A stretch of DNA of 64,000 nucleotides, from positions 248,001-312,000 of the forward strand of contig NZ_JAALDK010000003.1 of NCBI RefSeq assembly GCF_013366925.1, read 5' to 3'. Both the position numbers and the translations under genes were made by a program. This document shows positions 14,577 to 42,162 of the stretch, piece by piece (position 1 is the first letter of the stretch; the number at the start of each line of letters is the position of its first letter). The notes under the pieces are model-generated. The model made no database searches. It was given only the letters and a program-made list of their open reading frames with translations, and was not told the DNA's origin. The stretch is from Paraburkholderia youngii (GTDB lineage Bacteria; Pseudomonadota; Gammaproteobacteria; Burkholderiales; Burkholderiaceae).

Positions 14577-15392
14577 GTGAAGAAAACCGGTCATGACAGG
14601 GGTGGTTCACCGGACGAAGCGACCCCCGACGGAGCCCGGCGGCGCATCGTTCAGGGCGTCGCGGCGCTCGGCGTGCTGGCTGCTATCGGGCCCGTCGTAC
14701 GGTCGGTTTTCGCGGAGGAACAGGCGTTGCGCCAGACAGATCTCAAAGGAAAGAAACCCATGTTTGCTTATGTCGGATCGCGGACCACCCGCGAACGGAA
14801 TGCCCACGGCGAGGGCATCAGCGTCTATCACGTCAACACGGAAACGGGTGGACTCGAACTCGTCCAGCTCGTCAAAGACCTCGTCAATCCCTCGTTCCTC
14901 GCGCTGAGCGGCAACGGCGAGCGTCTCTACACCGTGCACGGCGACATGAGCGACATCAGCGCGTTCAAGGTCGACAAGGCGTCGGGCAAGCTGACCTTTC
15001 TGAACCGGCAAAGCACGCAGGGCAAGAACCCCGTGCACCTCGCGATCGATCCGTCGGGCCGCCATGTCGTCGTGTCGAATCACATCGGCGCAAGCCTTGC
15101 CGTGCTGCCGATCGCCGAAGACGGCTCGCTTCAGGAGTTGACCCAACTGGTTCACCTCGAAGGCCCGATCGGTCCGCATCGCGTCGAGCAGAAACAGGCC
15201 AAGCCGCACTTCAATCCGTTCGATCCGACGGGCGAATTCGTCATCGTGCCGGACAAGGGACTCGACCGCGTTTTCACGTTCCGTTTCAAGGACGGGCAAC
15301 TGATTCCTGCGACGCCCGCGTTCGTCGCATCGCGCGAAACGGCGGGGCCGCGTCACGTCGCGTTTCATCCGAAGGGAACGTATGCGTATGGG
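14577..15392 (+). pseudogene. Seven-bladed lactonase (YkgB/6-phosphogluconolactonase type), truncated
   Basis: Beta-propeller lactonase with an N-terminal twin-arginine-like export signal (RRRIVQGVAALGVLAAIGP), so probably periplasmic. Propeller repeats include ISVYHVNTETGGLELV, FLALSGNGERLYTVH and HLAIDPSGRHVVVSNH. The start is GTG 14577, with GGAGA 6 bases before it; an ATG 15 bp upstream lacks a ribosome-binding site. The frame loses similarity after HVAFHPKGTYAY at about 15390, where IS66 sequence begins. About a quarter of the propeller is missing. Confidence 0.75.
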
Positions 15393-16295
15393 CTTCTGTA
15401 CGAACGACGGCCACGCGCTCGTCGAGATCGGCGTTGAGATCAGCGAGCAACTCGATGTAATTCCGGCGCAGTTTCGCGTGCTCCAGCACCAGCGCGTCAA
15501 ATATGCGTGTCCATGCTGCGATCTCGGCATCAAGGTCACGCCTGCGCCGCCGCGTATCATCCCGCGTGGGCTGCTGAGTGAATCAGCGCTTGCGTGGATC
15601 GCCACCGGCAAGTATCAGTTCGGGATGCCACTGTACCGTCAGGCCGGACTGCTACGTCGTTTCGGCGGTGACATCTCGTCCAACACGATCGCCGCAAGCA
15701 TGGTACGCGTCGGTCTGGCGACTCAGCCGGTGATCAACCTGATGCGTGATGCGCTGCTCGACGCGGATCTGGTCTACTGCGACGAGACGACATTCCAGGT
15801 CCTGAAGGAGAAGGGGCGCAAGCCTCAAACGAAGAGCTACCTCTGGTCGCAGATGACCGATTCAGGACATCCGGTCCGCTGCTTCACGTACACGCCGGGA
15901 CGCCGCGCTCAGCTGGCCGACAAACTGTTCATGAGCGCGGTCCTGATGACCGATGGCTATGAGCCCTATAACAGCATCGCCGACCGATACCAGCTCGTGC
16001 ATCTTGGATGCTGGGTTCACTGCCGACGCTACTTCGTCAAGGCAGAAGAAAATGTGCCGAAAGCTGCGCGCTCGCCCGACCTGCTGGCCACACGCTTCAT
16101 CAAGCTGATCGGAAGGTTGTTCGTCGCTGAGGCACGCAGCGCGAAATGGGAAGCCAACCGGCGACAGCGATTGCGACGGCGATACAGTCCCCCGGCGTCG
16201 TGCCCAACAGCCTGCTCGGAAAGGCGCTAACTTATCTGCGCGAGCAATGGCCCAGCCTGATCCTCTACGTTGAGAACGGCAACTGGCCCATATCG
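15393..16295 (+). pseudogene. IS66 element 1: TnpC fragment
   Basis: Reads DGHALVEIGVEISEQLDVIP, ACPCCDLGIKVTP (zinc-finger cysteines), GKYQFGMPLYRQAGLLRRFG and DADLVYCDETTFQVL (a catalytic Asp). It then breaks at about 16185 with a deletion or frameshift and continues LLGKALTYLREQWP, ENGNWPISNN. The N-terminal part is missing because the element replaced the end of the lactonase gene. The C-terminal part stops precisely after the two Asn codons (NN) at the palindrome 16296-16337. Confidence 0.85.
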
Positions 16296-16337
16296 AACAA
16301 CGACTGTCATGCCGCTAGCGGCATGACAGTCGTTGTT
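16296..16337. repeat. 42-bp perfect palindrome at the joint of two IS66 genes
   Basis: The arms are 21 bp with no loop. The central 20 bp (TCATGCCGCTAGCGGCATGA) is identical to the centre of the palindrome at the left edge of the RIT element (31414-31449). The outer AACAAC/GTTGTT bases are the Asn-Asn codons of the two convergent tnpC genes. Confidence 0.95.
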
Positions 16338-17592
16338 ATCGGCTGGCACATGTCCATCGTCCAGATAGCGCGTAAGCGCCTCCCAACGTTTGAGGCTGTA
16401 GTCGAGTGCCGCGGCGACACCCGGATCCGTCCGGCACACGCTGCCGTTGCGTGAGCAGCCATGCATGGAGTTCGTCGGCGATGGGGCGAGCCCGCTCCTG
16501 ACGCACAAGACGTCTTCTATCGGGCTCGAGTTGTGCGGCGTCGCGTTCTACTTCGTACAACGCACCGAAGTATCGCAGCGCGGGCTCGGCCAGCTCGCTC
16601 TGGTGCTTGACGTGTAAATCAAAGAATTTACGGCGCGCGTGGGCCAGGCACCCGATCTCTGTGACCCCACTCCTGAAGCTGGACTTGTAGCCCCCGTAAT
16701 CGTCGCACGCCAGCTTGCCGCGCCACTCGCCCAGGAATGCGCGTGCATGTTCGCCGGCGCAGCTATCGGCGAAGTCATAGATCACCGCCTTCAGATCGGC
16801 GAACTGCGTGGTGCTGTACGCCCACAGATAGGCTCGATGGGTCTTGCCCTTTCCCGGGGCAAGCATCTGTACCGGCGTCTCGTCGGCATGCAGTACCGCG
16901 TGCTGCAATACCTCTTCGCGAAGCGCATCGACCAGGGGCTGCAGGCGCACGCCACACGCGCCAACCCAGCCGCCGAGCGTCGATTGCGCGATCGCCAGAC
17001 CCGCCCGCGCAAAGATGCGCTCCTGTCGATACAACGGCAGGTGATCGCTGTACTTGGCGACCAGCACCTGAGCGAGCAGACCGGTGGTCGGGATGCCCTT
17101 GTCGATCACGTGCGGCGGCACCGCAGCCTGCACCAGCGTCTCGCATGCCTTGCACGTCCATTTACCCCGGATGTGCCGCTCAACCGTGAACACGCCGGAC
17201 GTGTAATCCAGCGTCTCGCTGATGTCCTCGCCGATGCGAACGCGCTCGCAGCCGCACGTACAGATCGTACTGTCCGGCTCGTAATGAATGTCGGTACGTG
17301 GCAGTTCGGGAGGAAGCGGTTCACGCTTTGGCTGTTGCCGTGGTGTCCCTGCCTGCTCGCCGGACTTCAGCCCCTGCAGCTCGAGCCCGATTGCCGCCAG
17401 ATCCGCGTCGAGCGCTTCCTCGAGCAGGCTCAGTTGCTCCTTGTTGAGCTGCTCACTGCGCCTGCCGAACTGCTGCCGCTTGATGACCGAGAGTTCGTGC
17501 GTAAGCTGGTCGATACGTGTTTGCCGGTACTGCAACTCTCTTTCTTTCTCGGCGGCATCGATGCGAATCAACGCAACCACCCCTGCAGCCAC
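16338..17592 (-). pseudogene. IS66 element 2: TnpC, frameshifted and 3'-truncated
   Basis: IS66 DDE transposase. It has an N-terminal coiled-coil/leucine-zipper segment (LTHELSVIKRQQFGRRSEQL), a zinc finger (CTCGCERVRIGED with CKAC) and the catalytic segments HADETPVQML and KLACDDYGGYKSSF. The frame shifts at about 16420 (QRVPDGSG then VAAALDYSLKRWEALTRYLD) and ends at PADNN, exactly at the palindrome, so the catalytic Glu region (ENAIRPF in relatives) is absent. Confidence 0.85.
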
Positions 17593-17951
17593 GTTGCGCA
17601 GTCGCTCGCGGCCGACAGTGGCCAGCGCACCGTGATCGCCGTCGCGCCCCTGCGTACCTCGATCTCGATGTGCGTCGCCGCTGCAACACCATTCTGCATC
17701 TGCAGCGGCACAAATTCCGGCGACGAGACATTCAATTCCTGTCGGGCCGCTTCAGCGGCATCGCGTTCCTCCCGCGCCGCAACCCAGCTACGCAGCAGGT
17801 TGGCGTTCAACCGGTAATGCAGTGCCACGGCCGCAATCGACACATTCGGCTGCATTGCCGCCCGAATGACCGTCTCCTTGAATTCCTTGCTATGCCGCCG
17901 GCGCCGTGTCGGCTGCACCACATCCTGGACAACCTCGACTTCGTCCGTCAT
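17568..17951 (-). CDS. IS66 element 2: TnpA
   Basis: 127 residues from ATG 17949-17951. A helix-turn-helix of IS66/IS3 OrfA type reads FKETVIRAAMQPNVSIAAVA, LHYRLNANLLRSW, and the tail is a basic/beta segment (HIEIEVRRGATAITVRWPLS). It overlaps the following tnpC by 25 bp. No tnpB is present between them, so this is an IS66 variant lacking tnpB, or tnpB has been deleted. Confidence 0.8.
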   Translation of the reverse strand: MTDEVEVVQDVVQPTRRRRHSKEFKETVIRAAMQPNVSIAAVALHYRLNANLLRSWVAAREERDAAEAARQELNVSSPEFVPLQMQNGVAAATHIEIEVRRGATAITVRWPLSAASDCATWLQGWLR

Positions 17952-18028
17952 GTACACCTGTCCATTTAAAATTTGAATGGACATGATCGTCGGGCGGCAC
18001 GACTTGCCGATCAAGATGACTTCGCCGG

Positions 18029-18457
18029 GTGCTTACTCTCAAAGTCACGCACATCGACGAAGGCGGTAGGCGCTGCTTCGATCCCGACGGGAAACGACGG
18101 CTGATCGAGGCGTGCGAGAAACCCGGTGCATCGGTGGCTGGCCTGGCGCTCAAGGCTGGCGTGAACGCCAACCAGATGCGCAAGTGGATCATGCTGGAGC
18201 GCAGGGGGGCTCGGCGGAATTCGTACCCGTAGTGGAGGTAGCCGAACCGGATGCTGTGACGGCAAGCGCAAATCTGCGTTCGTCGCCTGCCGTGACGCTG
18301 GTGCTCAGGCCGCGCGAAGTCGTGCGAAGTTCGCCGGGCTCACCGTCACCGTCGCGCCTGGTGGCGCGACTTCCCAACGGGGGAGTCTCGAACTTGAGTG
18401 CAGCGGGCAGGATCCGGCATTGATCACGACGATGATTGACGCGTTGAGAAGCCGGTG
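18029..18457 (+). pseudogene. IS66 element 3: TnpA, two frameshifts
   Basis: Begins THIDEGGRRCFDPDGKRRLI and GVNANQMRKW (helix-turn-helix). It shifts frame near 18195 (GSAEFVPVVEVAEPDAVT) and again near 18380, ending with LECSGQDPALITTMIDAL, the normal IS66 TnpA tail. The stop overlaps the tnpB start. Confidence 0.8.
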
Positions 18458-18811
18458 ATGCTGCGCTTCGCCAACGACCTGCGCGTCTACCTGTATCGCG
18501 AACCGGTTGATTTCCGGTGTGGCCTCAACACCCTTGCTGTTCTGGTCGAGGAATCGATGCGGCTGGACCCGCTTGCCGGCGCCGTCTACGCGTTCCGCAA
18601 TCGTAAATGTGACAGGATCAAGCTCCTGCTGTACGAGCGCACTGGCTTCTGGCTGTTGCTGCGCCGGCTCGAGGAAGACCGTTTCGTGTGGCCGCGACGC
18701 GATGAGGAAGTGATCGAGCTGACAACGCAGCAGCTGCACTGGCTGTTGGACGGCATCGATATCGACGCGCTTCGCCGTCATCCTGTCCGTCATTACGAGC
18801 ACGCCGGTTAG
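18458..18811 (+). CDS. IS66 element 3: TnpB
   Basis: 117 residues reading MLRFANDLRVYLYREPVDFR and FRNRKCDRIKLLLYERTGFW, the signature of the IS66 Orf2/TnpB family (PF05717 type). The frame is intact. Its role in IS66 transposition is poorly understood. The ATG overlaps the tnpA stop, indicating translational coupling. Confidence 0.9.
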   Translation: MLRFANDLRVYLYREPVDFRCGLNTLAVLVEESMRLDPLAGAVYAFRNRKCDRIKLLLYERTGFWLLLRRLEEDRFVWPRRDEEVIELTTQQLHWLLDGIDIDALRRHPVRHYEHAG

Positions 18812-18901
18812 CCCGGCACGTTGCAGGTCAGTAACGCGACAGGCGCCTTTTACGGATTGACGTAAACCTGTAGCGCGCCGCGCTCCGCTATCCTGGAGCG
18901 C

Positions 18902-19618
18902 ATGACGAATGCACCCGACCTCAAGCGCGTACCCCATGCCGTCCAGGGCTATATACACGATCTCGAAGAACGCGTGGCTGGCGACACGAAGCGCATCGGC
19001 GAGCTGAGCCAGCGGATCGAACAGCTTGAGGAGTAGGTCCGTCTGCTGCAATCAGAGCGCTACGCACGGAAGAGCGAGAAACGCCAGGATCGGGGGTTCG
19101 ACGAGGCGGAGCAGCTCGCCAGTGAGCCCGGCGACGAAGACGACGCGGATGCGGGGCCCGCACTGCCCGACACCGGTTTGCCACTGGTCGGCCAGCCTGA
19201 GCGGAGCAAGGTCGGACGCAAGCCGTTGCCGGCGTACCTGAAGCGCGAACGCGTCGATCACGATCTGCCGGAAGACCAGCGAGGCTGCCCGTGCTGTGGC
19301 AATCCGATGCATCGCATCGGCGAGGATATCAGTGAACAGCTGCACGTCCAGGTCAAGTGGACGGTTCGCCAGAACGCGCGCGCAAAGTACGCATGCCGAC
19401 ACTGCGAGCGTCACGCCGAACATACACCGGTCGTGCTCACCCCGATGCCAGTGCAGCCGATTCCGGGTAGCCATGCGGACGCCTCGGTGATCGCGACGGT
19501 GGCGACCGCGAAATACGTCGACGGCATGCCGCTGTATCGGATGCAGGCGGCACTTGCCCGCTGGCAGATTCCGGTGAGTCGGGGCACGCTCGCGCAATGG
19601 GTGATCCGTCCAACAAGC
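18902..19618 (+). pseudogene. IS66 element 3: TnpC, 5' part
   Basis: Starts MTNAPDLKRVPHAVQGYIHD with GGAG upstream. The coiled-coil LSQRIEQLEE is followed by an in-frame TAG at 19036 and then VRLLQSERYARKSEKRQ. The zinc finger CPCCGNPMHRIGED and GMPLYRMQAALARWQIPVSR follow. The gene is interrupted after codons for IRPTS, and the rest is found at 30735-31413 and 34840-35091. The joined frame reads RPTSCSELHYSRLYDALYR. Confidence 0.85.
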
Positions 19619-19644
19619 CATCCCATCGCAGAATTACGAACAAT

Positions 19645-19681
19645 TTGTGGGTAATCCTGAGGGGAAACCCGGGGCGGTTCA
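19645..19681. repeat. Terminal repeat remnant, IS3-type (left)
   Basis: 37 bp ending CCCGGGGCGGTTCA. It matches, in inverted orientation with one substitution and one indel, 27763-27800. TGAACCGCCCCGG is the style of terminus seen in IS3-family elements. It truncates the SIR2 gene. Confidence 0.6.
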
Positions 19682-19937
19682 ATGTCCGTGTTGACTTATG
19701 CCATTCACGGTCCATCCAGCTGCAGAGGGCCCTGAGCCCGCCCTTCTTCTTGTAGAACTCCGCAAGGGCCAGGTGGGTGCCATAGGTAGAGAAAATCTTC
19801 GGGTCATAGCCAAGCTCTTTCGCGATGTGCGCGATCAACGCGTCCCAATTCGGCAGACCAAGGTTGGCAGGCACCCCGGCCCCCGCAAACAGCATCAGCT
19901 TGCCAGTGCGGTGGGCATCAAGCAGTTCGTCTTTCAT
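19682..19937 (-). pseudogene. SIR2-like effector, N-terminal fragment (KomC-like)
   Basis: From ATG 19935-19937 the frame reads MKDELLDAHRTGKLMLFAGA then GVPANLGLPNWDALIAHIAK. The G-A-G-x-P/S nucleotide-binding start (FAGAGVPANLGLPNW) is diagnostic of SIR2-like NADase domains of defence systems. Only about 85 codons survive before the IS end at 19681, so the catalytic His region and any C-terminal domain are absent. The ATG overlaps the stop of the HAM1 gene (ATGA). By analogy with Kongming KomC it would deplete NAD+ upon activation; here the effector should be dead. Confidence 0.8.
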
Positions 19938-20479
19938 TTCGTGCCCTTCGCAGATTTGAGGTGGGCGGCAAACAGATCCAGCGCTTTGCGGCGCATGGAG
20001 ATGTCGTCCTTGGCGGCCCCCATCTCCGCAAACGTCTGTGTGCTGCCATCCGGAACGAAGACACAGTCCCATTGGAAGTGAGTGGGACCGGCAGGTTTGC
20101 GAGGTACGGTTCCGTTGATCGCACCTTCTATTATATGGATCTCGCGCCCGTCGCAGTACCCAAGGATCGTTTTGGCAGTCACCTTGGCGTCGCCAAGCCC
20201 TGTAACGAGGTCGGCGAAGCGATCCGCTTGTAGCCTGTCCCAGAATATCTGCGTCAAACCTGCGGGAAGTCCATTGAGGCCGCTCAAGTACAAGCCTGTA
20301 TGTTCGACGAACAACGGGCGACCGATGGACTGGAACGCCTTGGTCAGCTTGTCCCGCACCAAACTCTCGACGTCTTCTGTCTGGAGCTCCTCGATTTTCC
20401 TCGACACCGGCACGATGTCCACGCCTACGGGGGCAAGGATCCGCTGCACTTCGGTGATCTTGTGCTCGTTGCCCGACAT
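19934..20479 (-). CDS. HAM1/RdgB-like non-canonical purine NTP binding protein (KomB-like)
   Basis: 181 residues, intact. It starts MSGNEHKITEVQRIL, equivalent to the (T/S)xNxxK substrate loop of ITP/XTP pyrophosphatases. The conserved FVEHTGLYLSGLNGLPAG and a central AKTILGYCDGREIHIIEGAI strand also belong to that fold. In the Kongming system the HAM1-like partner forms a complex with the SIR2 protein and senses dITP; that role here is inferred from gene order. It overlaps the upstream deaminase gene by 55 bp and the downstream SIR2 gene by 4 bp, a tightly coupled operon. Confidence 0.85.
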   Translation of the reverse strand: MSGNEHKITEVQRILAPVGVDIVPVSRKIEELQTEDVESLVRDKLTKAFQSIGRPLFVEHTGLYLSGLNGLPAGLTQIFWDRLQADRFADLVTGLGDAKVTAKTILGYCDGREIHIIEGAINGTVPRKPAGPTHFQWDCVFVPDGSTQTFAEMGAAKDDISMRRKALDLFAAHLKSAKGTK

Positions 20480-21531
20480 AAATCGGATTTTAGATCCTTC
20501 ACGAATGAGTAGCGTTTGGCTACTTCGTACTGCTGTCGCATGTCACCGATCGACAGGCCTTCGGCCATCGCGGCGGCTTGGTCATCCGCAAGGCCGCGCT
20601 GGTGGATTGCGGGGTTATCCGAGCAAATGACAAACGGCACGCCATATCGCCGGAACTGTTGAAGCGGGTGAGCCTCGTTCGCAGGAACTGCGCCAGTAAG
20701 CCGATTGCTGATCGGACACACCTCGACGCAGATATCCCTCGCAGAAAGAAGCTCCAGCACATCTGGATCTTTGCCAGCCGCTGTTCCGTGGCCAATTCGA
20801 TCTGCGCCGAACAGTTCTACGGCAGACCGGACGTTCTCAACGCGGCCTGTTTCACCGGCGTGGATCGTGATCCCGAGATCGAACCTGTCTTTGGCCGCCC
20901 GAAAGAGCGAGGGCAACTCTTTCGGATATGCCGTTTCTTCATCGCCAGCAAGGTCGAGCCCAATCACGTCCTTCGGCTCACCAAGGTCCTGGTAGGCCTG
21001 CAGGAGGGTGGATAGGTTGACCGCGCTGTAGTCGCCACGCGTCACCGTGAGAATCAGGCCGCGCCGGATACCGTGGCGCAGTGCAGCCACCCTGGTCGAT
21101 TCGATAAGGCGCTCGAGCGCCTGTGCTGGCGAGCACTTCTGAAGCTGTGCAAGGTACAGAACGCTGCTTCGGAGCTCGACGAAGCGCACGTTGTTTTCCG
21201 CCAGGCCCGCGACAACTGCAAGGGTGAGGCGATCGAGATTCTCGCGCTTCCTTGGAAAGAGCTGCAGAGCTTGCCATGGCGTTAGGTATTCGGCCAGCGA
21301 CTGGCAGGGTGTCGCTCGAACTAGGTCTCGCTCAAACTCGAATCCGGCTGGCAACACGGTCGCTTCGTCTGCCAGGATCTCTCGAATCGTCGACGTTGGA
21401 ATCGCGCCGTTCATGTGCATATGGAGTTCCCCCCGGCTATGCACGTCCGCGCCCTTTCCGTATTCGTGCGCTTCTTTGGCGTCGCGGGCATCGCCAAGCA
21501 TCCCAGGTAGGTCAATCTGCCGTTGATCCAA
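20425..21531 (-). CDS. Adenosine/AMP deaminase-like protein (KomA-like)
   Basis: 368 residues of metal-dependent deaminase TIM-barrel type. The metal-binding HxH lies in ELHMHMNGAIP, the catalytic HAGE in LGITIHAGETG, and EVCPISN and CSDNPAI supply later active-site residues (canonical enzymes usually have DDP where this has DNP). TTG 21531 has AGGAA upstream; an ATG at 21501 is the alternative start. In Kongming the deaminase makes a deoxyinosine nucleotide that phage kinases convert to dITP. Gene order deaminase-HAM1-SIR2 with overlapping ends supports that assignment. The reading frame is intact even though the effector gene is truncated. Confidence 0.85.
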   Translation of the reverse strand: MDQRQIDLPGMLGDARDAKEAHEYGKGADVHSRGELHMHMNGAIPTSTIREILADEATVLPAGFEFERDLVRATPCQSLAEYLTPWQALQLFPRKRENLDRLTLAVVAGLAENNVRFVELRSSVLYLAQLQKCSPAQALERLIESTRVAALRHGIRRGLILTVTRGDYSAVNLSTLLQAYQDLGEPKDVIGLDLAGDEETAYPKELPSLFRAAKDRFDLGITIHAGETGRVENVRSAVELFGADRIGHGTAAGKDPDVLELLSARDICVEVCPISNRLTGAVPANEAHPLQQFRRYGVPFVICSDNPAIHQRGLADDQAAAMAEGLSIGDMRQQYEVAKRYSFVKDLKSDLCRATSTRSPKCSGSLPP

Positions 21532-21627
21532 TCGTAGTTCCTGTATCTACTTATCGAGAGTCCTACTCGTTTCTGTGCGTTCTTGCGCGTTCCCATATTG
21601 TAACGCCTCCTCCGCAGAGACGCGTTA

Positions 21628-21690
21628 AGAACGTCCGGTCTGCCGTAGAACTGTTCGGCGCAGATCGAATTGCCCACGGAACAGCTCAAC
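21628..21690 (+). repeat. Inverted duplicate of an internal piece of the deaminase gene
   Basis: About 63 bp encoding VKNVRSAVELFGADRIAHGT on the plus strand, nearly identical to the coding sequence at about 20785-20850 on the minus strand (VENVRSAVELFGADRIGHGT). It ends where an IS6-type terminus (GGTTCTGTCGCAG) begins. It indicates that a second, inverted copy of the deaminase gene once lay here and was deleted by the IS. Confidence 0.8.
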
Positions 21691-21987
21691 TGGTTCTGTC
21701 GCAGTAAGAGCGAGAGGTCGGCCAAGTCCGATATGATATGGATTCCTTATCCAGCCAGAAAATAGAATTGCTGTGCGGGGGTTTGCACCAACGCCGCCAT
21801 CGTTCAATTGCCCCTTGACGCAGGATGCGGGCACAACGAAATTTCTCGAACCCAAGCATCGGTCGGGTCCGGCGCTTGATCGCCCGATGATCCTGTTCGA
21901 TGATGTTATTCAGATACTTTTTCTGGCGGACCCTGATCGGCACCTCCCGCCGGGCGTTGATCGCCTGAAAGGCAGCCAGATTCGATG
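21690..21987 (-). pseudogene. IS6-family element C, 3' end
   Basis: Terminus GGTTCTGTCGCAG at 21690. On the minus strand it encodes AINARREVPIRVRQKKYLNN, IIEQDHRAIKRRTRPMLGF (catalytic Glu) and a short tail. The N-terminal half is missing at the boundary with IS5 copy 2. Confidence 0.75.
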
Positions 21988-23100
21988 GGCTTTGTCCGGA
22001 TGGGGGTATTGCAAAGATGCTGGGGGGTGTAATAGCGCAACATCATGAAGCCAGCTTGAATAATGCCATATAAAGCCAGACTAAAGACGGTGAACGGCGC
22101 AAGCGCAAGAAGCCGGGGTACCGGGTGACGAACGCGCGGGCGTATAACCAGAGCCTGAGAAAGCGCGGCATGATCAGCCTGTATGTGCCGGGCGGCGATC
22201 TGAAGGCGCAGCTTATCAACGCAAAGATCCGTACGCCGGGCGTGTCGGGGCGTGAGCCGACCTACACCACGGCGTACATCGAGCTGATCTTTACCTTCTA
22301 CCGGCTGTTGGGTTGGGGGATGCGGCAGATCACCGGCTATATGGAGGACTACTGGGAGACTCGCGGGCTGGACATCCCGGTGCCCAGCGCCAGTCAGCTG
22401 GGCGAACGGTTCGCTTCACTGGAGGTGAGCGTCACGCAGCGTTGCGAACAGTTGGCCCGGCGTCTCGCGCGCGGCGGGACGATCAGTCTCATGGTCGACA
22501 GCACGGGATTGAGCTTTGGGCGGGCGAGCCAGTGGTACGAGGAAAAGTACGCTCAGAAGGCCGCGCGCACGCCGTGGCGCAAGATGCATCAGTCGATCGA
22601 CGCTGACATGAACGTACACGCGATCCGCATCACCACTACAGAAGTATTGGACAGCGAAGGAATGGACGCCGTGTTGCCCGCTGATGTGCCGATGGATCGG
22701 GTGATTGCCGATGGCGCGTACTACAGCATCGAGCGTACCGAAGCGCTTTCAGGCGCGGGCGTGACGCCCGTCATCCCACCGCCAGCTCACGCGGTCGTAC
22801 ACGGCGAGGAGAGAACCCGCCGGCATGACCAGATCGTCAGATACATCGAGGACAAAGGCATCTATGCATTTCACAAGAAATACGGCTACGGTGTGCGCTC
22901 GCTGGCCGAGGCACAGATCTCGCGCATCAAGCGCTGCATCGGCGAGCGCCTGCTGACGCAGGAGCTTGCGTCGCAGGAAGGCGAAGGCGTAATCATCGCC
23001 AACCTGCTGAACCGGTGGAACGCCTTCGGCAAACCGGTTTGCGTCAAAAATGCATAGTCGCGTCCATGGCACGGGAACTCGTACCCATCCGGACAAAGCC
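21988..23100 (+). mobile_element. IS5-family insertion sequence, copy 2 (complete, 1113 bp)
   Basis: Same length and transposase as copy 1, opposite orientation. Terminal repeats GGCTTTGTCCGGATGGG start at 21988 and end at 23100. It is flanked by two different IS6 3' halves pointing outward, and no target duplication is seen. Confidence 0.9.
22125..23057 (+). CDS. IS5-family transposase (copy 2)
   Basis: 310 codons with a sequence identical to the copy 1 product, including the catalytic segments VDSTGLSFG, IADGAYYSI and SLAEAQISR. The GTG start follows a one-base deletion that disrupts the longer N-terminus seen in copy 3. Confidence 0.9.
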   Translation: MTNARAYNQSLRKRGMISLYVPGGDLKAQLINAKIRTPGVSGREPTYTTAYIELIFTFYRLLGWGMRQITGYMEDYWETRGLDIPVPSASQLGERFASLEVSVTQRCEQLARRLARGGTISLMVDSTGLSFGRASQWYEEKYAQKAARTPWRKMHQSIDADMNVHAIRITTTEVLDSEGMDAVLPADVPMDRVIADGAYYSIERTEALSGAGVTPVIPPPAHAVVHGEERTRRHDQIVRYIEDKGIYAFHKKYGYGVRSLAEAQISRIKRCIGERLLTQELASQEGEGVIIANLLNRWNAFGKPVCVKNA

Positions 23101-23441
23101 CAGGAGTGGGGCGAATTTCGCTGCGCTTGAGGCTATCAACGCCGGGCGCGAGACGGCGATTAGGATTCGTCAGCCGAAGTATCTGAATAACATCGTCGAG
23201 CAGGACCACCGCGCGATCAAGCGCCGGACCCGCCCGATGCTCGGGTCCAAGAAATTTCGTTGCGCCCGCATTCTCCGGGGTGACATCGAAATCAAAATCA
23301 TGCACATGATCGTCAAGGGGCAATTGAACGATTGCGGCGTTGGTGCAGACTGCCGCACAGCAGTTCTATTCGCTGACTGTATAAGGAATGCATGCCATAT
23401 CGGTCTTGGCCGACCTTTCGCTCTTACTGCGACAGAACCCG
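23101..23441 (+). pseudogene. IS6-family element D, 3' end
   Basis: Encodes LEAINAGRETAIRIRQPKYL, NIVEQDHRAIKRRTRPMLGS (catalytic Glu) and then decays, ending at the terminus CGACAGAACC (23432-23441). It is related to but distinct from element C, and points the other way. The 5' half is missing at the IS5 joint. Confidence 0.75.
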
Positions 23442-23670
23442 AGCTGGTGCCCTGTACCTTGCGACAAGGACATCGTCCCCCTGCCACTGTAAATCCGAGA
23501 CAGCCTGCCCATAGTCGCGCGACTTCGCGACAGTGTAGGCGTCCAGCCATGCGATGATCTGTCGCATTTGTCGCAATTGCGACATTGAGAACATTGAAGC
23601 GACCGCATCGGAAGACTCGCTGGAATACCGAACTGACGTGGGATTTGCCACCTCACGCACACTTGGCACA
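23442..23670 (-). pseudogene. Unrecognised gene remnant
   Basis: The minus strand has an open stretch reading SVREVANPTSVRYSSESSDA, MFSMSQLRQMRQIIAWLDAY and DYGQAVSDLQW, with protein-like composition, cut at the IS6 terminus at 23441. I do not recognise the family. It has no clear start signal. Confidence 0.35.
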
Positions 23671-23694
23671 AAAAGTGATAGTCAAGAGAGAAGC

Positions 23695-23957
23695 CTCTTT
23701 TGAATTTCGAGTGGGTGGATTTGGCCGGGTCAAGGGCGGGCGTAACCCCGGCGGACCGCACCCTTGATGCGGTCAAATCCAGTCGCACGCTTGACGGCTC
23801 GGGCCAGGCAAAGCCTTGCGGCGCCCAGCTCCCGAGCTCGTCCGGCGGCAAGGACTTCCACGCCTTGGGGCGGGGTTAGGGGTGGGGTAATCCACGCCGA
23901 AGAGTCGAGTCTTCCGCTACCGCGCAAGGCGTACCACCCACTCAAATTTCAAAAGAG
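23695..23957. repeat. MITE-like element, 263 bp with 24-bp inverted repeats
   Basis: Left end CTCTTTTGAATTTCGAGTGG (23695 on) and right end, read inward from 23957, CTCTTTTGAAATTTGAGTGG; both continue GTGG, 22 of 24 matching. The GC-rich interior contains no credible gene. This is the structure expected of a non-autonomous miniature element. Confidence 0.55.
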
Positions 23958-24156
23958 CCAGAGAGAAATTAGTGGGTGCGGCAGCAGGCAGCGTAGTGCA
24001 AGGCATTGCACATCGCTACGGCCAGCTCGTTCAACGTAGCAATGGTTAGGGATACACAATGATAGCTTTATCGAAAGAAGAGGCGGGCGCAGGCCGTGCT
24101 GTGCACGGAGAGCTATCCCTCCCCGACATGAAGGCCGGGGTTGCCCGCGCCTTCTA

Positions 24157-24295
24157 ATGAAAAATTTTTTAGTATCAATCGCCTCGTTTGTGTTGCTACT
24201 GTCGATGACGGTGACCTCAGCCGCTGCAGCCGTGGCTGCCCCCGCGCCGTTGCCAAAGTGGAGCGTGTTGATTTTCATGAACGGGAAGATGTGTT
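24157..24295 (+). pseudogene. Clostripain-type (C11) peptidase, N-terminal fragment
   Basis: A signal peptide (MKNFLVSIASFVLLLSMTV, cleavage near SAAAA) is followed by PKWSVLIFMNGKM, which matches the start of C11 (clostripain-like) peptidases (KW-x-hydrophobic-MNG). It is cut within 45 codons by IS5-type sequence. The product would have been exported. Confidence 0.5.
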
Positions 24296-24326
24296 TACAT
24301 TTTGTCTTTTGCGCGAGCAGGCCAAG

Positions 24327-24518
24327 ATGATTCGAACGTTATTGAGCGATGAAGTATGGGCACGAATCGAATCCGTCTTGCCGGGCAAGGAAGGCGATCC
24401 AGAGCGCACGGCGACCGACAACCGTTGGTTTGTCGAAGCTGTCCTCTGGATCGGCCGGACCGGATGCCCCTAGCGCGATTTGCCGAAAGAGTTCGGCCGA
24501 TGGCATACGGTGTACATA
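24327..24518 (+). pseudogene. IS5-family transposase, N-terminal fragment
   Basis: Reads MIRTLLSDEVWARIESVLPG, FVEAVLWIGRTGCP, a TAG stop replacing Trp, then RDLPKEFGRWHTVYI. This is the typical N-terminus of IS5-group transposases. It is interrupted at 24519 by IS5 copy 3. Confidence 0.75.
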
Positions 24519-25130
24519 GGCTTTGTCCGGATGGGGGTATTGCAAAGATGGTGCGGGTTGTGTAGAAGCGCAACATCATGAAGCCAGCTTGAATAATGCC
24601 ATATAAAGCCAGACTAAAGACGGGTGAACCGCGCAAGCGCAAGAAACCGGGGTACCGGGTGACGAACGCGCGGGCGTATAACCAGAGCCTGAGAAAGCGC
24701 GGCATGATCAGCCTGTATGTGCCGGGCGGCGATCTGAAGGCGCAGCTTATCAACGCAAAGATCCGTACACCGGGCGTGTCGGGGCGTGAGCCGACCTACA
24801 CCACGGCGTCCATCGAGCTGATCTTTACCTTCTACCGGCTGTTCGGCTGGGGGATGCGGCAGATCACCGGCTATATGGACGACTACTGGGAGACTCGCGG
24901 GCTGGACATCCTGGTGCCCAGCGCCAGTCAGCTGGGCGAACGGTTCGCTTCACTGGAGGTGGGCGTCACGCAGCGTTGCGAACAGCTGGCCCGACGTCTC
25001 GCGCGCGGCGAGACGATCAGTCTCATCGTCGACAGCACGGGATTGAGCTTTGGGCGGGCGAGCCAGTGGTACGAGGAAAAGTTCGCTCAGAGGGCCGCGC
25101 GCACGCCGTGGCGCAAGATGCATCTGTCGA
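24519..25130 (+). pseudogene. IS5-family element copy 3, 5' part only
   Basis: Starts with the same terminal repeat as copies 1 and 2 and encodes MPYKARLKTGEPRKRKKPGY then TNARAYNQSL and onward to WRKMHLSI at about 25130, where similarity ends. It keeps the intact N-terminus that copies 1 and 2 have lost by a one-base deletion. Several substitutions separate it from them. Confidence 0.85.
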
Positions 25131-25259
25131 TCTCTCGCTTCAGGGCCCGCGAGGTCAGGTCGCGGCGCCCGGCCTGGATGTCTGCCGTAAAGGCCAGCCA
25201 GGCGCTCACTGGTGAAACGCGTTTGCCACGTTGTGATGAATCGCGAATCGCAGCAATTC

Positions 25260-25403
25260 GGCCATGATCGCCGCCCGCGAGGCCCCTTCGAAGAGCAGCA
25301 AGATCAACCGCGCACGCCTTACCTGGCCAACCGCCATCGTGCGGCTGCGCTGCATCGACATCAGCTCTTCGCGCTCGGTTTCACTCAGATTCATTTTGCC
25401 CAT
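25260..25403 (-). pseudogene. IS630-family transposase, N-terminal fragment
   Basis: From ATG 25401-25403: MGKMNLSETEREELMSMQRS, VGQVRRARLILLL, EGASRAAIMAEL, the start of an IS630-family helix-turn-helix. Similarity ends near 25260. Confidence 0.65.
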
Positions 25404-25454
25404 GCACTATTAGATAAGTGCAATTTCATTGGTTCAATGGACTAGGAGAAAAGC

Positions 25455-26807
25455 ATGCAGCAAATCGCGGATTCAATTCGACATTCTATAAGGAACAATC
25501 ACTTAAAGTCGTATGTATATAGTTACCCTTCGAAAAGGTCGTATAAAAGTCTACATAATATCGGCATTGCGGAAATATGGCACACCGGTGATCGCGGGCC
25601 AGCTTCAATATATATCCATATACCATTTTGCAGATACAGGTGTACTTATTGTACGTTATTTCTAACTACCCAGGGTACAGAGGATATAATACAAAACTAT
25701 GTTGATAAAATATGTGAACAAATCAAATTTTATGCGAAATATACGGGACGGAAGACAGTTGCATCTGTGTATTTTGGTGGCGGAACTGCGACTATTCTAA
25801 ACGAAAAACAATTCGGACAGGTTTTTTCATCGATTCAACACGGATTCCCGAATATTGCGTCCTCTGCTGAGCTATGTGTCGAAGGTTCTCCCGACTCGAT
25901 GTCCGAAGAACTCCTCGATTTCTTAAAAAGCCAAGGCGTGAACCGAATCAGTATGGGTATCCAAACCATGGATTCCGCTGAACTGAAGGCCAGCGGTCGC
26001 CCATACCCGGTTTCGACAACAATCTCCGCGGTAGAAAATATCCGAAAGCGTTTCGAAAATTTCAATCTGGATCTGATCTACGGCCTTTCAGGTCAGACCT
26101 ACGAAAGCTGGCAAAATTCGCTCCGCCACATCGTTTCATCAGGTCCACTTACTATCTCACTGTATCCTGCAATTAGCCGACCTCTCACAGCGATTTATAA
26201 GCAGCAGCGATTGCATCCGGAGCGATACATCGACGACCAGACCACGTATGCGATCTACGATAGCAATGTCGAGTTCATGCAAATGAATGGATACCGACAA
26301 GAGTCCTTCACTAGGTTCACCCGTCTGCCAGAAAGCAGCAGCGCGTACGCCCAAGAGACTTCCGACTTTCTCGGCGTTCCGATGATCGGAATTGGAGCAG
26401 GCGCAAGAAGCTACAACGGAAAATACCACTACAGCTTCGACTACGCGGTCGACCTCAACGAGGTCGGCAAGGCCATTCAAGATTATTTGAGCCTCGAAAT
26501 CACCGAACACAGCATGGTGAGGTACGGGATTGTTCTGGATGCTTACGAAGAGCGCTTGAGATATTTCATCCTCAGCCTTACGCTGAACCAGCTTTCTCGG
26601 GCGTACTATTCATCACAGTTTGGCCGGAGTCTGTATTCTGATTTTTTGGACGTAATTGATGCACTTGAGGCTGAGGGGTGCATCGAGCCACCGTCCAATG
26701 ACAAGATTCGATTGACCAGGAAGGGTTACAAATACAGTAATTTGGTCGCGCACCATCTTTTCTCGAGCCATGTGAAAACCCTGGAAGAAAGGTATGTTCC
26801 ACGATGA
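25455..26807 (+). CDS. HemN-like radical SAM enzyme
   Basis: 450 residues. The radical SAM motif CRYRCTYC places the cluster ligands at C59, C63 and C66; SVYFGGGTATIL is the SAM-contacting glycine-rich strand, and LDLIYGLSGQT is the HemN-family segment. The C-terminal part resembles the HemN_C wedge. HemN-like proteins include oxygen-independent coproporphyrinogen oxidase and class C methylases/cyclopropanases of natural-product pathways. AGGAGAA precedes the ATG. The stop overlaps the start of a methyltransferase gene (ATGA), which favours the natural-product type over haem synthesis. Composition is markedly AT-richer than the surroundings, a sign of transfer. Confidence 0.8.
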   Translation: MQQIADSIRHSIRNNHLKSYVYSYPSKRSYKSLHNIGIAEIWHTGDRGPASIYIHIPFCRYRCTYCTLFLTTQGTEDIIQNYVDKICEQIKFYAKYTGRKTVASVYFGGGTATILNEKQFGQVFSSIQHGFPNIASSAELCVEGSPDSMSEELLDFLKSQGVNRISMGIQTMDSAELKASGRPYPVSTTISAVENIRKRFENFNLDLIYGLSGQTYESWQNSLRHIVSSGPLTISLYPAISRPLTAIYKQQRLHPERYIDDQTTYAIYDSNVEFMQMNGYRQESFTRFTRLPESSSAYAQETSDFLGVPMIGIGAGARSYNGKYHYSFDYAVDLNEVGKAIQDYLSLEITEHSMVRYGIVLDAYEERLRYFILSLTLNQLSRAYYSSQFGRSLYSDFLDVIDALEAEGCIEPPSNDKIRLTRKGYKYSNLVAHHLFSSHVKTLEERYVPR

Positions 26808-27757
26808 ACAACAGTGAGCAATTTTGGGAGAAAGGTTATTCGGACGCGAAAGTTTGGACGATGGGCGGACCGAGTGTTGAGGTATTTGAAATTGAACAGT
26901 TTCTACCACGAAACTCGACTGTTATAGACATCGGCTGTGGCGAAGGCAGAAATGCGCTCTTTCTTGCCCTCAGGGGACACAAGGTGACCGCCTTGGAACT
27001 TTCCTCGAACGCCGTGAAGAAACTTCGTTCGATTGCTGACCGTTATTCATTGAACATCGATGTGATCGAGCAACGGATCGAGGATTTCGTACCGGATGAA
27101 AATTATGATCTAGTTATGGCGCACTCGTCGTTACATTTCGTGACGAAAGACGTGTGGATTCCCTTGCTTCGGGAAATGCGGCAACGGACTAAGCCGGGCG
27201 GATTTCACAACTTCACATCGATTATTGGAATTCCTCGCTACCCAGTTCCGCACGAGTGCCGACATGCCAATTCGTTTGACCGAGGCGATCTCGACTCGCA
27301 ATATGCGGACTGGCAGATTCTTCGTTCCGATTTCTACGCCAAGTGGGATTGCCATCCGGGTATTCCGACGCATGTGCATGCCGTTGAGAAGTTTCTCTCG
27401 AGAAAAGCAAACTCGGTCGAGCGGTTCACGTTGACGAAGGTCGATCTTTCGAACAGCGACAATCTTCCTTTAATCTTGTTCGACAGCATACCCCTTGGAG
27501 CCGATGCTACCGCAGTCAAGTCGATGGGTGTTCGTCCGAGACATGTCAATCGGATTGAAATGCTAGGGTGGAACATGACGTCTCCTATGGAGCTGACGGG
27601 CAACTATGTGGTTGAAGACTGGATTTTCGGGAAATACGGACTCCAATTCACACAGGGCATTTTGACGGGTAAATACGAGTATTTTACGTCACCAGTTTCG
27701 TTGCGGAACTCTAGACATCATGTATGGACCTGCCGCACCTCAAGGCACGCGGATTAA
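26804..27757 (+). CDS. Class I SAM-dependent methyltransferase
   Basis: 317 residues. Motif I is VIDIGCGEGRNALFLALRGH, followed by the acidic ALELS end of strand 2 and DLVMAHSSLHFV. The N-terminal 190 residues are TehB-like; the remainder (LSNSDNLPLILFDSIPLG, ELTGNYVVEDWIFGKYG) is a C-terminal domain I do not recognise. The gene is translationally coupled to the radical SAM gene and shares its low GC content. Radical SAM HemN-like plus methyltransferase pairs are known from cyclopropane-forming pathways such as CC-1065 (C10P/C10Q). The IS remnant starts 5 bp after the stop, so the last few residues may not be native. Confidence 0.75.
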   Translation: MNNSEQFWEKGYSDAKVWTMGGPSVEVFEIEQFLPRNSTVIDIGCGEGRNALFLALRGHKVTALELSSNAVKKLRSIADRYSLNIDVIEQRIEDFVPDENYDLVMAHSSLHFVTKDVWIPLLREMRQRTKPGGFHNFTSIIGIPRYPVPHECRHANSFDRGDLDSQYADWQILRSDFYAKWDCHPGIPTHVHAVEKFLSRKANSVERFTLTKVDLSNSDNLPLILFDSIPLGADATAVKSMGVRPRHVNRIEMLGWNMTSPMELTGNYVVEDWIFGKYGLQFTQGILTGKYEYFTSPVSLRNSRHHVWTCRTSRHAD

Positions 27758-27762
27758 CCTTG

Positions 27763-27800
27763 TGAACCGCCCCGGGGTTTTCCCTCAGGATTACCCACAA
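27763..27800. repeat. Terminal repeat remnant, IS3-type (right)
   Basis: 38 bp starting TGAACCGCCCCGGGGTTTTC, the inverted partner of 19645-19681. Together the pair brackets 8.08 kb holding komABC, the IS cluster and the radical SAM/methyltransferase genes. Confidence 0.6.
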
Positions 27801-28886
27801 GTTATGCAGTCGTGCTATTCGTCCTGCCTGAATATTCGGTACATCATCGTAATTTCATGCAGAACAAGAAAGCCACGCCAGATGACGGTAGGCCCTGGAG
27901 GATGATCACGCTTTCGAGGAAGATAGCCGCCGAGTCTGGCGATCCACAAAATCACCTGCGCGAGTGAGGGCGGTTCATCGGGCATTTCTGTACTACCGTG
28001 CGTACGGCAGTAGAGGGCCTGCCACTCGATTGGCTGCAGCAATACTTCGCACGACAGGTTTCCATCAAGCCGTGCAAGCAGCATCGCGTACAGGATTCTC
28101 CACCTTACTACGGCGAACAACGCTGTGGCGCGTACGAATCGTTCGACATTGCCAAATTGGCGGGTTTCAATGCGACAGCCGCTTTTAAGCACACGATGCC
28201 ACGATTCAATTGTGCATCGACGTGCATACCATGCCAGACGCTCGAGGGCCTGTGCTCGCGTATACGTAGGCACCGAGGTCAGCAATAGCCATTCCAATGG
28301 CTCGGCTCCTTCGTCTACGTTCGTTTCCAACGCATGAATTGCAAATACCTCAATTTCGGGAAGCTTCTCGCGACGACGATTTTGCCGCGGACGAAGGCGT
28401 ACGGGCATGCATCGTACAACCAGCCGTGCGGTGCGCGCCTGTCGGTTTTCGCGCAGGCACCTGCAGTTGCGTTTCTCCAATCACTGGCAAGGCTAGCACG
28501 GTTTCCAACAAATATCGATCAGGGTGTGCAACGTGTCGATTCCACGAAGCGCGCACCAGCCAGTCGACACCGGCAGGCCGCCGTGCCAGGAACACATCGT
28601 AGACATCGCCTTCGCGATCGCTCACGCCGATGACTTGCGTATGCGGACAGTGTGTCTTGAGTATGCCCAGCTGCTCGATACCTTCGAGCCATTTCGCGCG
28701 CTCTTTCTCTTGTACGCTTCGTTGTCCGCGCAGATGTTTCTTGCCCAACTCCTCCAGCCTACGTAGTCGAACCTGAACAATTCGAAGCGCCTTTTGCGGC
28801 AAGAGTTTGAAGCGGAAAGTTGTTGATGCATTTGCAGGAACCTGGCATTTTATGGGTAATTTCCTGCAAATTCTGTCGAGGTCTGG

Positions 28887-40795: not shown

Positions 40796-42162
40796 AAAGG
40801 CGCAACCCGGGAGGCCTTGTCGATCTGTCGCATTTCACTGTATAGAATAACCATAGCGATAAGACCCGCTGCCATATCGGCAGCCGCTACGGAGAACAAC
40901 AGGCCGTCTTGCCCATAAGCGTGCTGCAGCAAGGCCATCAGGGGCATCAGAAACAAGCCATGCCGCAGTACCGCTACAAGCGTTGCCCAGATTGCGTTGC
41001 CCTTGGCCTGCATGAAAAGCAGGCACACCTGTTGCATCCCTAACACCGGCAACGCACAATGGAATAGCAAGATCGCGCGGCTACCAATATCTATCATCGC
41101 CGACTCGTGCGCAAACCAGCCGATGATGGTTCTAGCTTGCCACGCGACCCAGCCGGCATAGACTCCGGCGAACGTTAGCGCGACGGCAACCATAGCCCGA
41201 ACCGCTTGCGCCACCCGTGTCCAGTTACCTGCGCCGACATTAAACCCAACAACCGACTGCGCCCCGCTGCACAGTCCATACAGCGGAAGTGCTGCCAGCA
41301 TCGCCAAGCGGCTGGCCAAACCTATCGCCGCCACCGATGCCTCACCGTAGCGAGCAGCGAACCCATTGAGCATGGACATGGCCGCTACCGCGAGCAGCGT
41401 ATTGAGCGCTGGCGGAATGCCGATGCGGGCGATGCTCGCCAGCCGGCACCCGCAGCGTCCCACCGATGGCCACGATAAGACGATGGCTCCGTGCCTGCCC
41501 GCGAAATGTCGCCAATACAAGGTTAAGCCGCACAACTGGGCCAGAAATGTTGCGATGCCAGCCCCTTCGATGCCCAGCCCGAACCAGAAAATCATCACCG
41601 GGTCGAGTGCCGCGTTCATTGCGAAGGATGAAACTTGGGTCGTCATGCTGAGCACGGTATTGCCATCCGCTCTCACGATGAAACCACAGATCATATTGAA
41701 TACCACTGCCACATAGCCCAACAGCAGCCAATGAAGATAAGCCACCGCCAGTGGCAAAATCGATGGTCCAGCGCCTAGCCATGTCAGCAAAGTTGGAGCC
41801 AACTGCCAGCCCGCGATAGCCGTTATGCCAGCAATTACCATCGCAGACCATAACGCGTGCGATGCATAATCGTTCGCAGAGTCATCGTCGGCACGTCCCA
41901 GGCTTCGAGCAATCAACGAGGCGGCCCCTGCACCGAAGATCTCGCCTATTGCCGTGATGCACATTGCAAATGGGAACGACAATGCCATCGCCGCGAGTGC
42001 TGCTGTTCCGAGCCGCCCCACGAAATAGGCGTTGAGCAACTGATAAGCGGCACTGACAGTGACGCCAATGACGGACGGAAGAGCCAGCCGCAGGATCAGT
42101 GGCAACAGTCGATCGTGGGCCATTGACTGCATCCGTGATGCCGCAACAGCTGGCGTGTTCAT
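40792..42162 (-). CDS. MATE-family efflux transporter
   Basis: 456 residues from ATG 42160-42162; membrane protein with about twelve hydrophobic segments (LPLILRLALPSVIGVTVSAA, AAMALSFPFAMCITAIGEIF, WLLLGYVAVVFNMICGFIVR). The two homologous halves are typical of MATE/DinF sodium- or proton-coupled drug exporters. The start overlaps the NRPS stop (ATGA), so it is translated after the synthetase and most likely exports the peptide. The last codons (ASRVAPF) meet the group II intron, so the native C-terminus may have been altered. Confidence 0.9.
   Translation of the reverse strand: MNTPAVAASRMQSMAHDRLLPLILRLALPSVIGVTVSAAYQLLNAYFVGRLGTAALAAMALSFPFAMCITAIGEIFGAGAASLIARSLGRADDDSANDYASHALWSAMVIAGITAIAGWQLAPTLLTWLGAGPSILPLAVAYLHWLLLGYVAVVFNMICGFIVRADGNTVLSMTTQVSSFAMNAALDPVMIFWFGLGIEGAGIATFLAQLCGLTLYWRHFAGRHGAIVLSWPSVGRCGCRLASIARIGIPPALNTLLAVAAMSMLNGFAARYGEASVAAIGLASRLAMLAALPLYGLCSGAQSVVGFNVGAGNWTRVAQAVRAMVAVALTFAGVYAGWVAWQARTIIGWFAHESAMIDIGSRAILLFHCALPVLGMQQVCLLFMQAKGNAIWATLVAVLRHGLFLMPLMALLQHAYGQDGLLFSVAAADMAAGLIAMVILYSEMRQIDKASRVAPF

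Follow-up and report, generated by a model that had tools for sequence, protein, structure and literature searches.

We analyzed a 64,000-nucleotide stretch (the window) of an 855-kb contig (C3) from Paraburkholderia youngii, whose genome comprises 9.49 Mb in four contigs and is rated 100% complete. On the minus strand between positions 19682 and 21531, the window encodes a deaminase and a HAM1 protein, followed by the beginning of a SIR2 gene; the three overlap one another in that order, as the first-pass annotation had read them (Table 1). The same order and overlaps occur in an intact relative from Ralstonia, and the order is kept across relatives. The deaminase and HAM1 genes are named by Pfam. 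The SIR2 remnant returned nothing from Pfam because the SIR2_2 model covers residues 103 to 244 of intact KomC, which the window lacks; it was identified through PDB and PADLOC searches.

The first-pass annotation had assigned the three genes to the anti-phage system Kongming (KomABC; structures 8zsf to 8zsi and 9xvc), and comparison with solved structures bears this out. Among the PDB matches listed for the HAM1 protein, KomB (8zsg) ranks above 14 other sequences, and the SIR2 remnant likewise has KomC of the solved Kongming complex as its best match. Another HAM1-SIR2 pair of solved structure (9v0g and its related entries) is far more distant from the window proteins, with E values of 2.8e-25 for the HAM1 protein and 1.8e-07 for the SIR2 remnant. 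The window shares with Kongming the gene order, the overlaps, and a KomA-type deaminase that has the tested active-site residues; it differs in that komC is cut at about codon 84, the komA stop and komB start are lost, and no working effector is left. Its KomA is 87% identical to that of Ralstonia, and its KomB is 90% and 79% identical to KomB of Ralstonia and Cupriavidus, respectively. The defense-system library PADLOC-DB 2023, suggested earlier as a check, did not confirm the system, since none of its matches bears the name Kongming: the deaminase matched CARF-ADA alone, the HAM1 protein had no match, and the SIR2 remnant had weak matches to ThsA, Dsr1, and LmuA. Judged by its sequence, the operon is nonetheless real and is Kongming. 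As set out in two published accounts (PMC12774641, PMC12948488), KomA together with a phage kinase and host NDK converts dAMP to dITP, which switches on the KomB-KomC NADase. In the working system, dITP is bound by KomB, which in turn activates KomC to destroy NAD+.

Table 1. Features of the Kongming locus and its surroundings (positions are those of the window)
Feature	Position	Strand	Basis or remark
IS66-family remnants next to komC	15382..19654	.	Pfam matches on four frames
Insertion-sequence-like end, 40 bases, abutting komC	19642..19681	-	Junction comparison
komC remnant, first ~84 codons of SIR2 NADase	19682..19937	-	Best PDB matches KomC 8zsi/8zsf, E 1.7e-25
komB, HAM1-like dITP-sensor gene	19934..20479	-	Best PDB match KomB 8zsg, E 1.5e-64
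komA, adenosine-deaminase-like gene	20425..21531	-	Pfam A_deaminase, 9.7e-49; placed with KomA by tree and active-site columns
komA read-on, 21 residues and stop	20425-20490	-	Own stop lost
Six-base deletion site, komA/komB overlap	20490..20491	-	Versus L005, L006, and P. mimosarum L055; position uncertain by 1 or 2 bases
komA native part	about 20491-21531	-	347 codons; TTG start common to relatives
komA upstream region, likely promoter, retained	21532..21618	-	Inside stretch alignable to Ralstonia locus
Inverted duplicate fragment of komA, 65 bases	21621..21685	+	Copy of 20780-20844, 97%
IS6/IS240-type transposase remnant, abutting komA fragment	21686..21943	-	Pfam DDE_Tnp_IS240, 8.6e-07
Second, inverted copy of the insertion-sequence-like end	27763..27803	+	Beside truncated end of methyltransferase gene

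Adenosine deaminases and HAM1 proteins are general salvage families, and a Ham1 protein was present in all 14 control genomes, which lends some plausibility to the idea that the window genes are housekeeping purine-salvage genes merely resembling Kongming. The first-pass annotation had named two observations that would speak against a defense role, namely, clustering with housekeeping enzymes and homologous operons without SIR2, and we looked at both. Housekeeping RdgB and adenosine deaminase, members of the same protein families, are encoded separately on contig C1 of the genome and are distant from the window proteins in our trees (FastTree, midpoint-rooted). The window deaminase lies inside a 29-member KomA clade (support of 0.77, and 1.0 for 27 of these members), in a tree that omits L010, L034, L050, L066, L067, and L069 as decayed, split, or near-duplicate. 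Likewise, the HAM1 protein groups with Kongming KomB and away from RdgB (support of 0.69 for the KomB side of 23 and 0.99 for an inner six) in a tree of 30 rows drawn from a subset of loci. Neither protein groups with these housekeeping enzymes. For linkage, we scanned genome contigs with a KomB alignment and found 57 loci, 43 of which (L008 to L050) encode a KomB of at least 46% identity. A KomC match lies beside KomB in all 43, two of them (L013 and L033) cut by a contig end. Furthermore, KomB is rare, occurring at an E value of ≤1e-20 in just 3 of 398 genomes of a family sample, our own included. The clade and linkage tests thus refute the salvage reading, to which we give next to no credence.

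The clade placement is matched at the active site, where all seven tested columns of the window KomA are as in other KomA proteins. Six of these columns (HxH, HAGE, GHG, and the first Asp of the DDP motif) are identical across the 29 rows of the clade. At the seventh, the second Asp of DDP, every one of the 29 has N, compared with D in 11, G in 1, and N in none of 12 other deaminase rows, which represent 11 distinct genes (L074 and L041 are one gene); the housekeeping adenosine deaminase also has D here. The earlier remark that the window deaminase has DNP in place of DDP was therefore right about the residue but not about its being anomalous. DNP is a signature of KomA proteins rather than a lesion, and it offers a useful annotation rule.

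The damage is elsewhere, most plainly in komC. The first-pass annotation had the SIR2 gene stopping at an insertion sequence terminus, and this is what we see: identity to relatives ends at about codon 84, and a 40-base insertion-sequence-like end begins at 19681. Beyond the break, the sequence is a different one, which is more than a frameshift. The remnant matches residues 2 to 90 of the 264 residues of the KomC chain, and the intact Ralstonia KomC matches residues 3 to 263 (E = 7.7e-107). Within the remnant, one codon is missing, S is changed to P in GAGVS, and one base is deleted just before the break. A complete SIR2 NADase is thus not encoded, and the region of the catalytic histidine, taken to be His146 from the name of the PDB mutant H146N and from alignment, is absent. 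As had been proposed, we searched the genome for the C-terminal part of the SIR2 protein. No remainder of KomC was found at an E value of ≤1, and no SIR2_2 protein was found at an E value of ≤0.001 in a search that gave matches in 2 of the 14 control genomes. On these searches, we reject a KomC remainder, or a substitute effector of the SIR2_2 family (the sole substitute family searched), elsewhere in the genome. The earlier reading of a disarmed effector holds.

Because the window genome and its sister from Paraburkholderia mimosarum are represented by one assembly apiece, one could suspect that the Kongming locus works and that its breaks arose in sequencing or assembly. This is very unlikely: komC has been replaced by different sequence and not merely frameshifted, its remainder is missing from a four-contig genome of full estimated completeness, and the sister species is broken in a different way.

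The 40-base end beside komC has, we presume, the look of an IS3-type element. It has no transposase attached, and the exact 19-base sequence at its start occurs once in the genome. The sole other close copy that we found, slightly different and inverted, lies beside the methyltransferase gene, and the two inverted ends bracket an 8.1-kb segment with the Kongming remnant. Dense insertion-element debris (IS66, IS240-type, DDE_Tnp_1, and Tn5-dimerization-type) extends from 15382 to 28480, surrounding a radical-SAM and methyltransferase gene pair that is shared with P. mimosarum. On the other side of the operon, the 65-base inverted fragment of komA adjoins the IS6/IS240-type remnant. Farther away, a 2,170-amino-acid frame on the minus strand (42159 to 48671) encodes a nonribosomal peptide synthetase that contains AMP-binding, condensation, and carrier-protein stretches, two of each.

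The first two genes, described earlier as intact, are not so in detail. Compared with the Ralstonia, Cupriavidus, and P. mimosarum loci, the komA/komB overlap lacks six bases, and their loss removes both the komA stop and the native TTG start of komB. Without its stop, KomA is extended by 21 foreign residues past its normal end. komB still follows komA directly, and the first ATG, GTG, or TTG in its open frame is at 20479, so that five N-terminal residues are dropped. Judging from HAM1 structure, this loss may impair KomB folding, and signal-making by KomA may be affected as well. Among close relatives with the same overlapping architecture, the first-pass call for an uninterrupted locus is answered by Ralstonia sp. 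NFACC01 (L005/L008), where the operon is complete; the window has the same overlapping A-B-C order, with its A/B overlap altered by the deletion. Cupriavidus sp. LEh25 (L006/L012) has a komC split over two frames.

Within the genus, KomA was detected at an E value of ≤1e-30 in 2 of 144 genomes, one of which is our own, and in each of them the locus is broken. The other is P. mimosarum LMG 23256 (L055), which is 97.3% identical to the window across komA and the beginning of komB and has the same radical-SAM and methyltransferase neighbors (95.7% identical), although the orientation of komA relative to them is opposite in the two genomes. In P. mimosarum, komB passes into the frame of a DDE transposase past about codon 30, and komC is gone by our searches, a KomC search of the whole genome returning two weak SIR2-like matches alone (E = 0.007 and 0.04). 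The break lies beside an insertion that differs from that of the window, which indicates that the effector was lost separately in the two lineages. In contrast, the komA/komB junction of P. mimosarum is intact, and the six-base deletion of the window therefore postdates the split.

We compared substitutions in komA since this split. With Ralstonia as outgroup, the window has 4 silent changes and 1 amino-acid change and P. mimosarum has 2 and 9 (6 changes unassigned; Fisher P = 0.036). With an Oxalobacteraceae outgroup, the counts are 2:1 for the window and 3:9 for P. mimosarum (7 unassigned; P = 0.24). The contrast thus varies with the outgroup and is suggested rather than established. Along the longer window branch since the Ralstonia split, nonsynonymous changes make up 27 of 70 polarized changes in komA, 6 of 23 in komB, and 8 of 22 in the komC remnant; in all three genes, amino-acid changes are below the neutral expectation. 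None of the three ratios is significantly different from its counterpart on the Ralstonia branch (P = 0.85, 0.26, and 0.46), and sequence change alone therefore does not reveal relaxation. Purifying selection on this branch makes the decay look recent, or partly opposed by selection.

The locus is very probably a Kongming operon in decay. The sequence shows that komC is cut at about codon 84 by the insertion-sequence-like end, so that the NADase cannot form, and that the six bases lost at the overlap leave KomA with a foreign tail and KomB without its normal start. The locus most likely gives no abortive-infection defense and is disappearing, and the break is probably recent when set against the long time over which komA and komB were under purifying selection. 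Going by what remains of the genes, dITP signaling, NAD+ loss, and phage protection would be expected to be absent. Two observations run counter to decay: the komA frame is open with its tested active-site residues kept, and the few amino-acid changes in the window komA since the P. mimosarum split fit a KomA that is still in use. They raise the alternative of a retained half-system, in which selection still maintains production of KomA and KomB in the absence of KomC, perhaps to alter dAMP and dITP pools during infection or to bind dITP made elsewhere. That komA is open in two sister genomes with komC broken or absent, and that the window retains the region upstream of komA, point the same way. 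However, KomB has lost its start and KomA its stop, our search of the genome turned up no SIR2_2 protein that could serve as partner effector, and a recent break would also explain low change counts. In P. mimosarum, moreover, the excess of amino-acid over silent changes in komA and the roughly 20 upstream bases that it shares with the window look like drift. We consider a retained half-system decidedly unlikely and favor decay. Kongming is already known, and the window copy shows how the system decays: it is a natural case of a suicide-type defense disarmed at its effector, separately in two sister lineages, and together the two loci show which parts of Kongming outlast others.

Other parts are missing in relatives at large. 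Canonical KomA is encoded in 27 of the 43 related loci (in L034, downstream on the opposite strand), a divergent deaminase is encoded in 3 (L037, L041, and L049), and one (L010) has komA scraps alone. The remaining 12 have no KomA match in the locus, within about 5 kb of upstream sequence in six cases and 0.3 to 2.5 kb in the other six. Searching the genomes of these 12 hosts for KomA (E ≤ 1e-5) turned up six matches, spread over five hosts, of at most 31% identity and with D or G, never N, in the DNP position; no canonical KomA was found in these genomes, several of which are incomplete metagenome bins. KomB-KomC pairs without KomA include L022, L026, L027, L028, L036, L039, and L070. In L037 and L049, a divergent adenosine-deaminase-like gene, about 24 to 25% identical to KomA and with D for N, lies just upstream on the opposite strand and is a possible alternative signal maker. 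Individual loci show further damage: the KomC match lies in two separate frames in L012 and has an interruption in L047, and komA is split in L034 and L050, damage that could in all four reflect sequencing error. L010 from Chitinimonas taiwanensis has decayed in the reverse direction to the window, with komA reduced to scraps, one with four internal stops, and komB and komC matched in full. The 14 remaining loci of the scan (L051 to L064) comprise the P. mimosarum locus and 13 distant HAM1 proteins that have no KomC match.

This frequent separation of KomB-KomC from KomA is the most interesting loose end, as it raises the question of where the activating nucleotide comes from. Kongming may be modular, with separable halves. 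The effector was lost twice here while KomA, and in the window also KomB, stayed open and may act on dAMP or dITP pools, and KomB-KomC pairs elsewhere that have no recognizable KomA may respond to a nucleotide signal from another source, such as the phage. We regard this idea as speculative and unlikely. Among the matches listed by a search of the open literature, titles and the starts of abstracts contained no report of KomA-less pairs or broken Kongming loci.

Related genes also occur on plasmids and in viral contigs. KomB was found at an E value of ≤1e-20 in 100 plasmid records, 95 of them from Pantoea. Only two plasmid records match KomA at an E value of ≤1e-30, and neither is from Pantoea, whose plasmid records gave no KomA match at this threshold (plasmids only). 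In one Pantoea plasmid viewed in detail, KomB-KomC lies between unrelated genes, in a record without a KomA match. The phage collection held no KomB match at an E value of ≤1e-10. Five contigs of a viral collection contain KomABC loci (L065 to L069), with two groups among them that resemble near-copies by their equal match values, suggesting that KomABC is carried by proviruses.
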